Shown here piece by piece: positions 1 through 61,873 of a DNA stretch of 61,873 nt. Numbering within the stretch: the stretch's first letter is position 1; the number at the start of each line of letters is the position of its first letter. Source of the stretch: Phormidium tenue FACHB-1050 (lineage in GTDB: Bacteria; Cyanobacteriota; Cyanobacteriia; Pseudanabaenales; Pseudanabaenaceae). The notes under the pieces were generated by a model. The model saw only the letters and a list, made by a program, of their open reading frames with translations, did no database searches and had not been told where the DNA came from. The translations under genes were made by a program, and so were the position numbers. The DNA lies in NCBI RefSeq assembly GCF_014696925.1, contig NZ_JACJQY010000032.1, positions 1-61,873 on the forward strand, in the 5' to 3' direction.

Positions 1-101
1 TTTTTCGTCGTGGTTTTGATTTCCTGCGTCACTTCATCTTTGACCTTCATCTCAATTCCGAGGCTTTCTTCAACTCCATTAAATTTTTGTCCTGTACTTA
101 G
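1..101 (+). CDS. Transposase, C-terminal fragment
   Basis: The frame beginning at base 3 reads through 32 codons (FRRGFDFLRHFIF... ending FLSCT) to a TAG at 99-101. The aromatic, positively charged ending resembles the last residues of cyanobacterial IS4-family DDE transposases. The 5' part lies outside the window, so the catalytic residues cannot be checked. The stop codon overlaps the IS terminal inverted repeat, a compact arrangement typical of IS elements. Confidence 0.6.
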   Translation, partial: FRRGFDFLRHFIFDLHLNSEAFFNSIKFLSCT

Positions 102-129
102 GTCCTAGCTATTTCTTACATTGCTATAA
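1..129 (+). mobile_element. Right-hand end of an IS4-like insertion sequence (truncated by window edge)
   Basis: The terminal inverted repeat at 84-129 is the reverse complement of the sequence at about 61745-61790: TTATAGCAATGTAAG, seven variable bases, then TAGGACCT(A/T)AGTACAGGAC. The window therefore starts inside one IS copy and ends inside another in the same orientation. The transposase stop codon lies within the repeat. The family assignment (IS4-like) is from memory of cyanobacterial transposases ending in FLSCT. Confidence 0.75.
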
Positions 130-10725: not shown

Positions 10726-11847
10726 ATGAATACGCAAGCAACTTCCGTTGTATCTTTGCAAGCTCCCAAAGATGTCTCGGTATCTCAAGTCGAAGCAGAG
10801 CTAAGCAAAATCTGGCAGTCCTATGGCGAAAATTCAGCAGCCCGTGCTACTACATTTAATCTGTTAGTGTACGAACCAGAAACCATTGGCGCAGCATCAC
10901 GAATGGCTTCCGTTGATGCGATCGTTTCTCAGAGTCCATGTCGAGTCGTCGATTTGGTAACTCTTGATGAAGAAGATCAAGGTATATCCGCACAAGTAGC
11001 AGCCTACTGCCCAATTCAAAAAAGCCGTAGCTCCTTAATTTGTGGTGAATACATCACTCTCACTGGCGCGAAACGAGCTTTCGATCGCGTACATAGCATT
11101 CTTCCAGAGTTACTGATCCCCGATCTACCTGTTTTTCTATGGTGGAAAGATAGTCCTGCGCCAAATACGCGCATGTTTGAGAAGCTAGTTAATTTAAGCA
11201 ATCGCTTAATTATGGACTCAGCTACTTTTGCCAATTCTGAGGCAGACTTACTCAAAGTGCAAGGCATGATCAAAGTGGGTACGCAAATTGCAGATTTGAA
11301 TTGGCAACGTCTTGCACCTTGGCAAGAGTTGACTGCTCAAGCATTTGACCAACCCGATCGCCGTGCAGCTGTATGGGAAATTGATGGGATCACCATTGAT
11401 TACGAACGTGGTAACAGTACTCAGGCTCTCATGTTTCTGGGCTGGATTGCCAGTCGTCTAGAGTGGGAACCAATCGAGCGCACTTCTGAGGGTGGTGACT
11501 ACGACATTCAACATATTATTTTTGAAGGTCGTAACCATATCCAAGTTAAAGCTGAATTAGCGGCGATCCCCATTGGTGATGTAGGTGAAGTAGTTGGCGA
11601 TCTGATTGGTTTGCGCTTGACAGCCTCTAATCAAAACACTGATGCTTGTAATGTATTTTGTTCGGAATCTACTGGCTGTATGCGGATGGAAGCTGGTGGT
11701 GGAGCGCAAAACTACCGTGTGCATCAAGTATCACCTTTGTCTGATCAAAGTGCTGACACTCTGCTGGGTCAACAGCTACAGCGTTGGGGTAGAGAGGCTC
11801 TCTACGAAGAAAGCCTTGCACTCGTAGCCAAAATACTCGCACTATAG
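10726..11847 (+). CDS. opcA: Glucose-6-phosphate dehydrogenase assembly protein OpcA
   Basis: A 373-residue OpcA/glucose-6-P dehydrogenase assembly protein. Motifs RATTFNLLVYEPE near residue 42, LLIPDLPVFLWWKDSP near 130 and a C-terminal region with two Cys (NVFCSESTGC) are conserved. OpcA is the thioredoxin-linked allosteric activator of Zwf in cyanobacteria. The immediately upstream zwf supports the call. The TAG stop overlaps the first bases (TATAG) of a family A repeat. Confidence 0.95.
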   Translation: MNTQATSVVSLQAPKDVSVSQVEAELSKIWQSYGENSAARATTFNLLVYEPETIGAASRMASVDAIVSQSPCRVVDLVTLDEEDQGISAQVAAYCPIQKSRSSLICGEYITLTGAKRAFDRVHSILPELLIPDLPVFLWWKDSPAPNTRMFEKLVNLSNRLIMDSATFANSEADLLKVQGMIKVGTQIADLNWQRLAPWQELTAQAFDQPDRRAAVWEIDGITIDYERGNSTQALMFLGWIASRLEWEPIERTSEGGDYDIQHIIFEGRNHIQVKAELAAIPIGDVGEVVGDLIGLRLTASNQNTDACNVFCSESTGCMRMEAGGGAQNYRVHQVSPLSDQSADTLLGQQLQRWGREALYEESLALVAKILAL

Positions 11848-11957
11848 TTGTCGCCATTCTTGTTAGGACATAAAACCCCAGAAGAGAGTGGCGGCGGGAA
11901 GCGCCGCCACTCCCTTCTGGTTTTGATTTGTCCTAATACACTTGACTACAGCTATAT
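11843..11957. repeat. Family A MITE-like palindrome
   Basis: Outer 27-nt ends begin TATAG and run to TTAGGAC on the left and GTCCTAA on the right. The core hairpin has GAGAGTGGCGGCG / CGCCGCCACTC, imperfect in this copy. The opcA stop codon lies in the left end. Confidence 0.75.
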
Positions 11958-22680: not shown

Positions 22681-22779
22681 TATAGCTATAGCCACCTGTA
22701 TCAGGACAAAAAAAACAAAATAGTGTGAGGCGGCGCTTCGCGCCGCCTCACACTATACAAGAATGGCGATAGCCATATA
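22681..22779. repeat. Family A MITE-like palindrome
   Basis: Ends TATAGCTATAGCCACC / GGCGATAGCCATATA, with a core TAGTGTGAGGCGGCGC and its complement. The AAACCC border pairing is degraded here. Confidence 0.75.
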
Positions 22780-30058: not shown

Positions 30059-30174
30059 TATAGCTGTCGCCAATCTTGTTATGACATAAAACCCAAATAG
30101 TGTGAGGCGGCGCGAAGCGCCGCCTCACACTATTTGGGTTTTGATTTGTCCTGATACAGGTGGCTATAGCTATA
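30059..30174. repeat. Family A MITE-like palindrome (complete)
   Basis: Outer ends TATAGCTGTCGCCAATCTTG / CAGGTGGCTATAGCTATA. The core has perfect 25-bp arms AAACCCAAATAGTGTGAGGC... around a GAA loop. Confidence 0.85.
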
Positions 30175-38071: not shown

Positions 38072-38187
38072 TATAGCTATAGCCACCTGTATCAGGACAA
38101 ATCAAAACCCAGATAGTGTGAGGCGGCGCGAAGCGCCGCCTCACACTATCTGGGTTTTATGTCCTAACAAGAATGGCGACAGCTATA
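38072..38187. repeat. Family A MITE-like palindrome (complete)
   Basis: Ends TATAGCTATAGCCACCTG / GAATGGCGACAGCTATA, core AAAACCCAGATAGTGTGAGG and complement with a GAA loop. Orientation is opposite to the copy at 30059. A covarying pair (CAGAT/ATCTG against CAAAT/ATTTG) distinguishes the two. Confidence 0.85.
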
Positions 38188-38281
38188 TAATCCGTTTCAA
38201 AGGGTTTGAGCTTTTATCCCAGAGTTGATTGCAGGACTACTCGGTAATTGCTATAGCAATTACTGATTAAACGAACCAAAT

Positions 38282-38335
38282 ATTTTTGTGAAAGTTTTGC
38301 AAAGCAAAACTTTCACAAAAATATTTGGTTCAAAT
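38282..38335. repeat. Family C palindrome
   Basis: CAAATATTTTTGTGAAAGTTTTGC and complement, followed by TTTGAGCGCAAAGCG. With the family A copy it fills the 356-bp gap before the diguanylate cyclase. Confidence 0.7.
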
Positions 38336-41154: not shown

Positions 41155-41227
41155 AAAAAGAGCGCCTAGCGCTCTTTTTTATGTCAATTTGAAGAGAGTG
41201 CGCCCCGAAGGGGCGCACTCTCTTCAA
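41153..41227. terminator. Desaturase terminator plus a second palindrome
   Basis: First hairpin AAAAAAAGAGCGC-CTA-GCGCTCTTTTTT (41153-41180). Second perfect palindrome TTGAAGAGAGTGCGCCCC-GAA-complement (41189-41227). Confidence 0.8.
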
Positions 41228-41240
41228 ATATTTGGAGTTA

Positions 41241-43051: not shown

Positions 43052-43104
43052 AAACCAATTTTAGGATTTCCGCGCCGTAGGCGCGGAAATCCTAAAATTG
43101 GTTT
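43052..43104. repeat. Perfect palindrome related to the double-hairpin element
   Basis: 25-bp arms AAACCAATTTTAGGATTTCC... around GTA. It begins ...TTATGAAACCAAT, as do the elements at 46061 and 52528 (TTATGAAACCGAT), so it may be a one-hairpin version of them. It lies upstream of gltD. Confidence 0.65.
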
Positions 43105-43270: not shown

Positions 43271-43360
43271 CACAAAACCCAAATAGTGTGAGGCGGCGCT
43301 TCGCGCCGCCTCACACTATTTGGGTTTTGAATTGTCCTGATATAGGTGGCTATAGCTATA
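43271..43360. repeat. Family A MITE-like palindrome, left end missing
   Basis: Core AAAACCCAAATAGTGTGAGG and complement are intact. The right end GTCCTGATATAGGTGGCTATAGCTATA is present; the left 27-nt end is absent, so this copy is truncated. Confidence 0.75.
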
Positions 43361-49311: not shown

Positions 49312-49346
49312 AAAAGAAAGGAGGCGCTACACGCCTCCTTTCTTTT
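49312..49346. terminator. Bidirectional terminator
   Basis: AAAAGAAAGGAGGCG-CTACA-CGCCTCCTTTCTTTT between the convergent pdhB and umuC genes. Confidence 0.9.
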
Positions 49347-51245: not shown

Positions 51246-51344
51246 TATAGCAAGATCAAATTAGGACACAAACCCAGAAGAGGAGTTGCGGCGCTTTGCG
51301 CCGCAACTCCTCTTCTGGGTTTAATACAAATGGCGATAGCTATA
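51246..51344. repeat. Family A MITE-like palindrome
   Basis: Left end TATAGCAAGATCAAATTAGGAC, core AACCCAGAAGAGGAGTTGCG and complement with a TTT loop, right end GGCGATAGCTATA. Confidence 0.85.
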
Positions 51345-52271: not shown

Positions 52272-52345
52272 TCGGAATGTTGGGATTTGAACCCAAGACC
52301 CCCACTACCCCAAAGTGGTGCGCTACCAAGCTGCGCTACATCCCG
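52272..52345 (-). tRNA. tRNA-Pro (GGG)
   Basis: 74 nt on the minus strand. Acceptor CGGGATG / CATTCCG, anticodon arm CCACT-TTGGGGT-AGTGG giving GGG at positions 34-36, T-loop TTCAAAT, no encoded CCA. Downstream gene order is convergent with the NUDIX gene. Confidence 0.95.
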
Positions 52346-52399: not shown

Positions 52400-52517
52400 T
52401 ATAGCAATGTAAGTTTTGCTTAGGACATAAAACCCAAAAGATGAGGGGCGGCGCTTCGCGCCGCCCCTCATCTTTTGGGTTTTGATTTTTGTCCGAGCTA
52501 TCTCTTACGTTGCCATA
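52400..52517. repeat. Family A MITE-like palindrome, closest match to the boundary IS ends
   Basis: The left end TATAGCAATGTAAGTTTTGC...TAGGAC is identical for 27 nt to the IS end at the right edge of the window (61746-61772). The right end GTCCGAGCTATCTCTTACGTTG is very close to the left-edge IS end. Core AAACCCAAAAGATGAGGGGC and complement. Confidence 0.85.
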
Positions 52518-52690: not shown

Positions 52691-52796
52691 TTTATACCAA
52701 TTCACGAAAGTGTTGTAATACTTTCGTGAATTGGTATAAAAAAACAATAGAACCAAAACAAAAAATGGCGTAGCCATTTTTTGTTTTGGTTCTATT
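52691..52796. repeat. Family B repeat containing the zds stop codon
   Basis: Hairpins TTATACCAATTCACGAAAG... and a second palindrome centred on GGCGTAGCC (52745-52797) whose right edge includes the zds stop (52792-52794). With the family A and double-hairpin copies it fills the 446-bp gap before zds. Confidence 0.8.
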
Positions 52797-54192
52797 GGGC
52801 AATACGAATACCCTTAATCACTTCTGCGGCACACATCTTGCCCGAAAGTGTCGCGCCTTCCATACTGTCGATGTAGTCCTGCATCGTGTAGCTTCCCGCG
52901 AGGAAAAAATTCTTTACAGGTGTAGCTTGAGTTGGACGGAAGGGATCTTTGCCTGGGGCTTCACGATAGAGCGACTGCGCCAGTTTGACCACACTTGACC
53001 AAGTTACATTCAGCTTATTGGAAGAAGGGAAAATCTGATGTACTTGAGCAATCATCTTCTCAACGATCGCTTCATTACTGAGCTTAATATAATCATCCGC
53101 AGGGGTAATCACTAATTGCAAGAGAGAGCCTTCGCCTTCTTTGTAATAATCAGTAGGGCTAGTAATTGCCAAATCTGCAAAGGTGGAGAAATCGACTTTA
53201 ATGGCATAAAGTAAATTATCAATATCTGTCACCCAACCATCAAATCGCAGTTGCACCGTAATTACAGGCACAGCATCGAGCTTATAGATATTGTCGAACT
53301 GTGACCATGCTCGCCATTTCTCAGGGATAATCCTTTTTACCCCTGGAACATCGGTGGCACAGATATATACATCGGCATTCACGATTTCTTCACCGTCTTC
53401 TTTGCCAATGATCAAACCTGTAACGCGAGTATCTTCGCCTTCACCTTCAAAGAGAACTTCGCGTACACCACGACGTAAATGGAACTTGCCGCCTTTAGAT
53501 TCAATCAACTTCACAATTGGCTTGTGCAGAAATTCGTCGGGCGCACCTTCGAGCATTCTCAAAATCGAAGCTTCAGTTCTTGATGCAAAGAATTGGAAGA
53601 TGGTGAGCATACAGCGTGCAGAAATATTTTCGCAGTCGATAAAGCCTAAACCATAGGCGATCGCATCCCACATCAAATCAAGACTCGCCTGTGATCCACC
53701 CATGCCCAAAAACCAATCTTTGAAACTGATATTGTCGAGGGCGCGGATTTCCTTCATTGCACCGACATGATCGACTAAGCCGCGAATTAAGGGACTCCGC
53801 CCGATCGCGATCGCATTTTGGATTTTGTCCTTGAGTGGCAGCTGTCCTGTGGTTACAAATGCTTTTAGACCATGAAAGGGTGCGCCGCCAAAGTTCCGAA
53901 AATCAAGGGCAGCCTGTGCGCCACCGGGATTAACAAAAATATGCGTATGTTCCTTGAGACGTAGATGGTCGAATGCGCCTGTTTTTTTCATCAGTGCAAA
54001 GAGGTTGTAGTAGCAGCCAAAAAATACGTGCAAGCCCATCTCGATATGGTTGCCATCTTTGTCTAGCCAACTGCTGACTTTGCCGCCAACAAAGGGACGG
54101 GATTCAAAAAGTTCTACCTCGTAGCCTTGCTCACTGAGTTCCACGGCAGTACTCATACCCGCTAAGCCTGCACCAATAATCACTGCTTTCAT
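52792..54192 (-). CDS. zds: Zeta-carotene desaturase
   Basis: A 466-residue FAD-dependent desaturase (CrtQ type) of the poly-cis carotene pathway, converting 9,9'-di-cis-zeta-carotene toward prolycopene. N-terminal FAD motif [26 protein letters not shown] near residue 4, and C-terminal FAD/flavin motif [23 protein letters not shown]. Length and the plant/cyanobacterial Pds/Zds pattern support the call; Zds rather than Pds because of [21 protein letters not shown]. Stands alone between repeats. Confidence 0.93.
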
Positions 54193-61745: not shown

Positions 61746-61873
61746 TATAGCAATGTAAGTTTTGCTTAGGACCTTAGTACAGGACAAAAAGTTGCAAAAG
61801 TAGGCAGGAAGGGGTTTTATAAAAGATAACCACATCACAAATAAAACCCCTATGAAAGAGATTAACCTATTTC
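61746..61873 (+). mobile_element. Left-hand end of an IS4-like insertion sequence (truncated by window edge)
   Basis: The terminal inverted repeat at 61746-61790 matches the reverse complement of bases 84-128. An inverted repeat AGGGGTTTTAT / ATAAAACCCCT (61810-61851) precedes the transposase start and could restrict its translation. The element is complete only beyond the window. Confidence 0.7.
61852..61873 (+). CDS. Transposase, N-terminal start (partial)
   Basis: An ATG at 61852 begins MKEINLF and runs off the window. The start resembles cyanobacterial IS4-family transposases. Only seven codons are visible. Confidence 0.5.

Follow-up and report, generated by a model that had tools for sequence, protein, structure and literature searches.

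The palindromes scattered over the window, a stretch of 61,873 nucleotides from Phormidium tenue FACHB-1050, are very probably MITEs of the IS630/Tc1-mariner type with TA ends, and the IS that bounds the window on both sides is an unrelated IS4-family element inserted in them. The draft genome of 5.6 Mb comprises 89 contigs, of which the window is C26 (contigs are given below as C, fetched loci as L and other genomes as G). The nearest named relatives found were Pseudanabaena genomes, with 98% identity for the protein encoded at 52792-54192, records of the genome itself being possibly excluded from that search. An earlier note had treated the palindromes as MITEs of the bounding IS. That they are MITEs is supported by hundreds of ends in the genome, the inverted arrangement of these ends, TA duplication, empty sites and full elements elsewhere; that they belong to the bounding IS is refuted, since the shared 27 nt lie outside the IS, in palindromes into which it inserted. 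What is new is an IS630-type MITE family, here called family A, the kind of MITE itself being already known; literature searches for repeats of Pseudanabaena and for cyanobacterial MITEs listed no paper on family A. The result is a clear cyanobacterial IS630 family together with its MITEs across a genus.

The copy at 52400 lies between a tRNA-Pro (52272-52345, minus strand) and the gene at 52792-54192 (minus strand), which by its sequence is presumably carotenoid-desaturase-like. This copy and the further family A features of the window are as follows.

52400..52517, plus strand: family A MITE of subtype A1, 118 bp (sequence, genome copies)
52400..52426, plus strand: its left end, TATAGCAATGTAAG-N7-TAGGAC, the first TA read as target duplication (pattern search; TA reading from other copies)
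52491..52517, minus strand: its right end, TATGGCAACGTAAG-N7-TCGGAC (pattern search)
52429..52483, no strand: its hairpin core, with 26-bp arms at 52429-52454 and 52458-52483 and loop TTC (folding)
11843..11956, no strand: family A MITE of subtype A2, 114 bp, both ends (layout search)
30059..30174, no strand: family A MITE of subtype A2, 116 bp, both ends (layout search)
38072..38187, no strand: family A MITE of subtype A2, 116 bp, both ends (layout search)
51246..51344, no strand: family A MITE shortened to 99 bp, its two ends unlike; also in Pseudanabaena sp. SR411
22681..22707, plus strand: single A2 end, the start of a truncated family A MITE (layout search)
43271..43360, no strand: family A MITE keeping the right end alone, also in SR411 (layout search)

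Nine copies had been credited with one shared layout of 27-nt ends. Both ends were found in three of them (11843, 30059 and 38072) and one end in three others (22681, 43271 and 52400), while TATAGC-N15-YAGGAC with one mismatch gave no such layout at 51246, 58822 or 59971. The right end at 52400 carries further mismatches beyond those allowed by the one-mismatch search; read by letters, 51246 has both ends in shortened form, 58822 has one decayed end, and 59971 has the core only. Among the nine, the TATAGCAATGTAAG end occurs in 52400 alone, and the other ends found by the layout search are of the TATAGCTGTCGCCA / TATAGCTATAGCCA sort. The identity of 52400-52426 and 61746-61772 over 27 nt was confirmed, and TATAGCAATGTAAG-N7-TAGGAC with up to three mismatches matches the window four times against 0.01 expected by shuffling. 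The likeness of the copy's right end to the end near the contig start holds for 52491-52517 (minus strand) against 102-128, with 23/27 positions by hand count, the span 84-129 having been given earlier. At both L036:1225-1341 and 51246-51344 of the window, an A1-like end on one side accompanies an A2-like end on the other, and such mixed ends suggest recombination between MITE subtypes.

With the 52400 palindrome as query, at least 88 matches were obtained, strands counted apart and 40 of 646 candidates scored; counts of ends are the better measure of copy number. At one mismatch, TATAGC-N15-TAGGAC has 592 hits across the genome where the reversed pattern has 40, and the A1-type end, at up to two mismatches, has 170 against 0. 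Of 23 genomes surveyed within the genus, 22 have the layout more often than its reversed control, G001 (34 vs 35) being the exception; outside the genus, the same is true of 4 out of 15 genomes from other families, with a strong excess in G025 alone (610 vs 26). MITEs of about 95 bp at L070 and L071 of this last genome have the same end layout around a quite different hairpin core; because ends but not core are shared, hairpin cores seem to have had more than one origin. A census of fetched loci yielded 47 candidates, of which seven without a hairpin were dropped; 36 of the remaining 40 readings (one copy read twice) start and stop with TA, and 35 were aligned. Excluded from the alignment were four readings that could not be oriented, two of them readings of window copy 51246, and the oriented L048:1513-1632; loci L189-L192 are in no alignment. 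Most full copies measure 114-120 bp with both ends, and the family is short, non-coding, present in many copies and bounded by inverted repeats.

Full elements with these ends were found in congeners and in one genome from a different cyanobacterial family. In G035, three elements of 963 bp are bounded by the same layout and contain two overlapping IS630 transposase frames, and three short elements of 94 bp have the same ends. Within the genus, both ends enclose full elements at L096 (G003, 953 bp, frame broken) and L075 (G021, 954 bp), and one end stands beside a reading frame at L072, L073, L074, L076, L079, L201, L202, L209, L210 and L212, some of which are cut by a contig end; L082 has one layout end farther from its reading frame. 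The catalytic parts of L096 and L075 scored above cut-off with Pfam DDE_3 and NCBIfam IS630, and fragments of the transposases of L072, L096 and L075 agree with IS630 models. The best end among the genome's own MITEs, A2b, is identical to L072 at 26/27 nt, and the A1 right end to L210 at 24/27. Autonomous IS630 elements sharing these ends were found only outside this genome, and the exact A1 left end was not among the ends shared, no full element with it occurring among the fetched loci; the scan of ends covered 30 loci from a first protein search, part of a longer match list, and 15 from a second. Two candidates were rejected: L080 proved to be another IS630 type beside a partial MITE, not an autonomous A1 element, and at L203 the A1 end faces away from the reading frame.

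The assembly itself, an 89-contig draft, yielded no autonomous element with TAGGAC ends: the helper search returned eight DDE_3 matches, two weak protein matches, and then none at E 1e-25; since many contigs end in repeats, absence of a helper from this genome is not proven. IS630 copies with other end sequences are nevertheless present in the assembly, and one of them, L059, starts with TATAGCAAT, so that these types rather than the congener type might be thought to move the palindromes. This is improbable, for when the L059 end is set against six end types of family A, no more than 13-16 of 27 positions agree, against 24-26 at best for the congener and G035 elements, and the own-genome IS630 copies were rejected as helpers on their unlike ends. 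L059 (C67:149187-152606) is a third IS630 element, with ends TATAGCAATCCTAAATGAGTTGTG. The second type, at L057 and L058 (the starts of C11 and C36), has ends near TTATACCAAATCACAAAAG and resembles TATACCAATTCACAAAAGTG palindromes, with which it perhaps forms another IS630/MITE pair; window hairpins with ACAAAAGTG are seen near 1050-1100.

As non-autonomous IS630/Tc1-mariner elements (type II MITEs), family A copies would keep only the putative transposase-binding ends (TATAGC-N15-TAGGAC, the outermost TA being the target duplication) around a near-perfect hairpin. They may be excised and pasted into TA by an IS630 transposase supplied in trans, as the behavior of the ISY100 transposase with mini-elements would lead one to expect; the helper would be missing from this assembly or hidden in its gaps, and may be made elsewhere or have formerly been present in the genome. 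ISY100 (ISTcSa), an IS630/Tc1-mariner element of 947 bp from Synechocystis PCC 6803, is described as duplicating TA and as needing only short ends, mini-elements with 30 bp of each end moving as well as the full element (PMC2170065). It has a single transposase of 282 aa and imperfect repeats of 24 bp, whereas the G035 and G021 elements have two overlapping frames, and the likeness is drawn from its published description. Similarly compared by description only, the MITEs of Anabaena sp. 90 are also cyanobacterial and of type II, 132 of 147 being intergenic, with predicted secondary structure; no partner IS was found in that genome (PMC3542288), whereas family A has partner types in sister species.

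Two relatives, SR411 (G041) and P. frigida ULC066bin1 (G042), were examined for orthologous regions. In both, the site of the C13:42505 copy is empty, as is that of the C13:48903 copy in SR411, and each clean empty site equals the filled site minus the element and one TA, as placed by hand, the alignment gap itself being ambiguous. At C13:46176, a tandem pair of adjacent A1 and A2 copies is missing in SR411, the site being less clean. Insertion into TA with duplication of TA is seen at these three places, namely the clean empty sites of C13:42505, in both relatives, and of C13:48903, and the tandem, which is not clean. SR411 does have copies 51246 and 43271, and its match at 38072 runs 96 bp into the element, where synteny ends; 30059, 52400, 58822, 59971 and C13:43801 were unscorable owing to lack of synteny or contig breaks, and 11843 and 22681 lay outside the comparison. 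Such presence and absence between species, as read from sequence, points to mobility of family A. The palindromes could instead be REP-like or terminator hairpins that spread by conversion and not by transposition, with incidental TA ends, as the very stable hairpin and at least one copy consisting of the core without ends (59971) might suggest; yet the empty TA sites correspond to whole elements with their ends, and the end layout is common to full IS630 elements, which leaves this explanation very unlikely.

The hairpin of the 52400 copy folds at -76.6 kcal/mol, with a z of -14.6. Over the 35 aligned copies, 98.5% of 908 arm cells pair; 77 cells have changed on both sides, a single one-sided change gives a wobble pair, and 14 cells do not pair, eight of them at the outermost pair. 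This near-lockstep change of the arms belongs to family A copies only, and shared descent inflates the cells counted. Among orthologous hairpins of all kinds, one-sided changes stand at 7 against 4 paired ones in SR411, three of the four in one family A copy, and at 36 against 7 in the genus, with four unpaired double changes besides; arm correction as a general rule was rejected because one-sided changes outnumber paired ones. The loops of the 35 copies, grouped by hand, are GAA-type in 19, TTC-type in 13 and other in three. Comparison of orientation with SR411 took in 9 of 12 orthologous hairpins of any family, 38008, 43273 and 51345 being left out, and four were nearer to the inverted loop, four to the same orientation, and one tied. 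In 27 orthologous pairings of 16 hairpins at 17 Pseudanabaena loci, there were eight exact loop inversions, five unchanged loops, and 14 otherwise changed. Loop inversion was noted at 38273-38331, 41187-41229, 43052-43104 and 49312-49346 of the window and among loci L102-L118. Template switching between arms is described in two reports as homogenizing the arms and inverting the spacers (PMC8604942; PMC8794818). Only loop inversion is well supported here, since one-sided arm changes are common in orthologues; these hairpins form a natural set for counting loop inversions and the matching of arms.

The bounding IS and the MITE halves beside it are located at the two edges of the window.

61773..61873, plus strand: left end of the IS4-family element, CTTAGTACAGGAC..., the contig end cutting the element (genome copies, flank alignment)
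61852, plus strand: start ATG of the IS4-family reading frame (sequence)
1..101, minus strand: other end of the IS4-family element, CTAAGTACAGGAC... inward, the contig end cutting the element (genome copies)
61746..61772, plus strand: left end of another A1 MITE, cut by the IS4 insertion, the rest on contig C44
61764-61772, plus strand: IS4 target duplication GCTTAGGAC, the last 9 nt of that A1 end (flank pairing)
102..128, minus strand: end of a further family A MITE, cut by the IS4 insertion, the rest on contig C16
102-110, minus strand: IS4 target duplication GTCCTAGCT (flank pairing)

Ten near-identical left ends of the bounding IS on the contigs of the genome all begin CTTAGTACAGGAC, as at 61773 of the window, and differ in their flanks; the nine occurrences of the opposite, right end likewise have different flanks. 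When 61746-61873 was used as query, nine other places matched at 100%, all only from query base 27 or 28 on, and the further matches, to the 27 nt alone, were palindromes. Nine of the ten left ends were partnered with a right end by a perfect duplication, of 9 bp in eight cases and 8 bp in one, the second-best flank partners having at most four bases in common; the tenth, on C3, was without partner among the nine right ends. This pairing used the 19 near-identical ends (the genome count being 22 at up to one mismatch) and left out diverged ends on C74, C63, C47 and C25. Because left and right flanks pair as target duplications, the IS boundaries are placed at 61773 and 101 and the 27 nt outside them are target; 61746-61772 and 102-128, formerly taken for IS ends, are not. 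The very outcome that the earlier note had named as contradicting it was found, the supposed 27-nt IS end being half of an interrupted palindrome.

The transposase, taken from the partial copy on C3, scored 161.9 bits with the NCBIfam IS4 model NF033591 (cut-off 152) and fell just below the cut-off of Pfam DDE_Tnp_1 (21.9 vs 23). A target duplication of about 9 bp is expected of the IS4 family. The bounding IS is an IS4-family element with ends CTTAGTACAGGAC / CTAAGTACAGGAC and target duplications of 8-9 bp, which it shares with that family along with the DDE transposase model NF033591; the bounding IS alone is a member, and the palindromes, with ends TATAGC..TAGGAC, differ from it in terminal sequence. 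Both window-edge copies do carry 27-nt ends directly outside the IS, but a single autonomous/non-autonomous family sharing such ends is scarcely credible, for they adjoin only 3 of the 19 IS ends (C26 twice and C7), three others adjoining the core side of a palindrome (C16, C17 and C44) and 13 other sequence, the 8-9 bp duplications put the IS ends at CTTAG, the transposases are of IS4 and IS630 type, and family A sites duplicate TA, not 9 bp. When an IS sits inside a MITE, the end of the MITE can be mistaken for that of the IS, a misreading to which any shared-end method is open; the two can be distinguished by target duplications from many copies.

In the sister genome G022, two such IS4 ends enclose 1,141 bp, by subtraction. 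Inward-facing pairs of IS4 ends (CTAAGTACAGGAC) about 130 bp apart were observed at G014:C8:36498-36651, G022:C1:2819548-2819701, G040:C1:388085-388238 and other places, so that in sister species this IS4 element, too, seems to be accompanied by short MITEs of its own. The target duplications also link contig ends across IS4 copies (C16, C26 and C44; C17 and C7; six other pairs) and could serve to scaffold the draft genome.

Three of the nine paired IS4 insertions, including both at the window edges, sit within palindromes of family A, all three at one 9-bp site. These are the pairs C26/C44 (GCTTAGGAC), C16/C26 (GTCCTAGCT) and C17/C7 (GTCCTAAGC), and in each the two IS4 flanks are the two halves of one family A MITE. 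The site hit, GTCCTAAGC / GTCCTAGCT, is the inner edge of the MITE end, and insertion of the unrelated IS4 element there would have produced the false 27-nt match. The chance of at least three of nine insertions falling anywhere in a family A element is 2e-5, with 300 copies assumed; with 550 real ends assumed, it falls to 1.5e-6 if any position within an end counts and to 8e-11 if only the exact site does. The family A end is a candidate landing site for an IS4 element. By eye, no IS4 flank among those listed for the sister species has TAGGAC or GTCCTAN3 immediately adjoining the IS, which leaves this genome as the only one in which the preference for the MITE end is seen. A review describes IS1111 landing in QMITE2 of Coxiella, where an unrelated IS likewise uses a MITE as its target (PMC10969869); there, IS1111 recognizes the GTAG REP in the MITE, whereas the target here is the MITE terminal repeat, hit by an IS4-family element that duplicates 9 bp. 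Tentatively, and somewhat against the balance of expectation, the two processes may act jointly: the IS4 element would prefer the MITE end of another family, and template switching in replication would remodel the hairpin cores, flipping the loop and copying arm onto arm, to give each MITE lineage a near-perfect but different hairpin. At L034 (C25:9500-14000), a decayed IS4 end was observed near 1212 beside a decayed palindrome ending in GGGTTTTATATTCTAAAT; this pair is perhaps a fourth, old IS4 insertion at the same MITE site.
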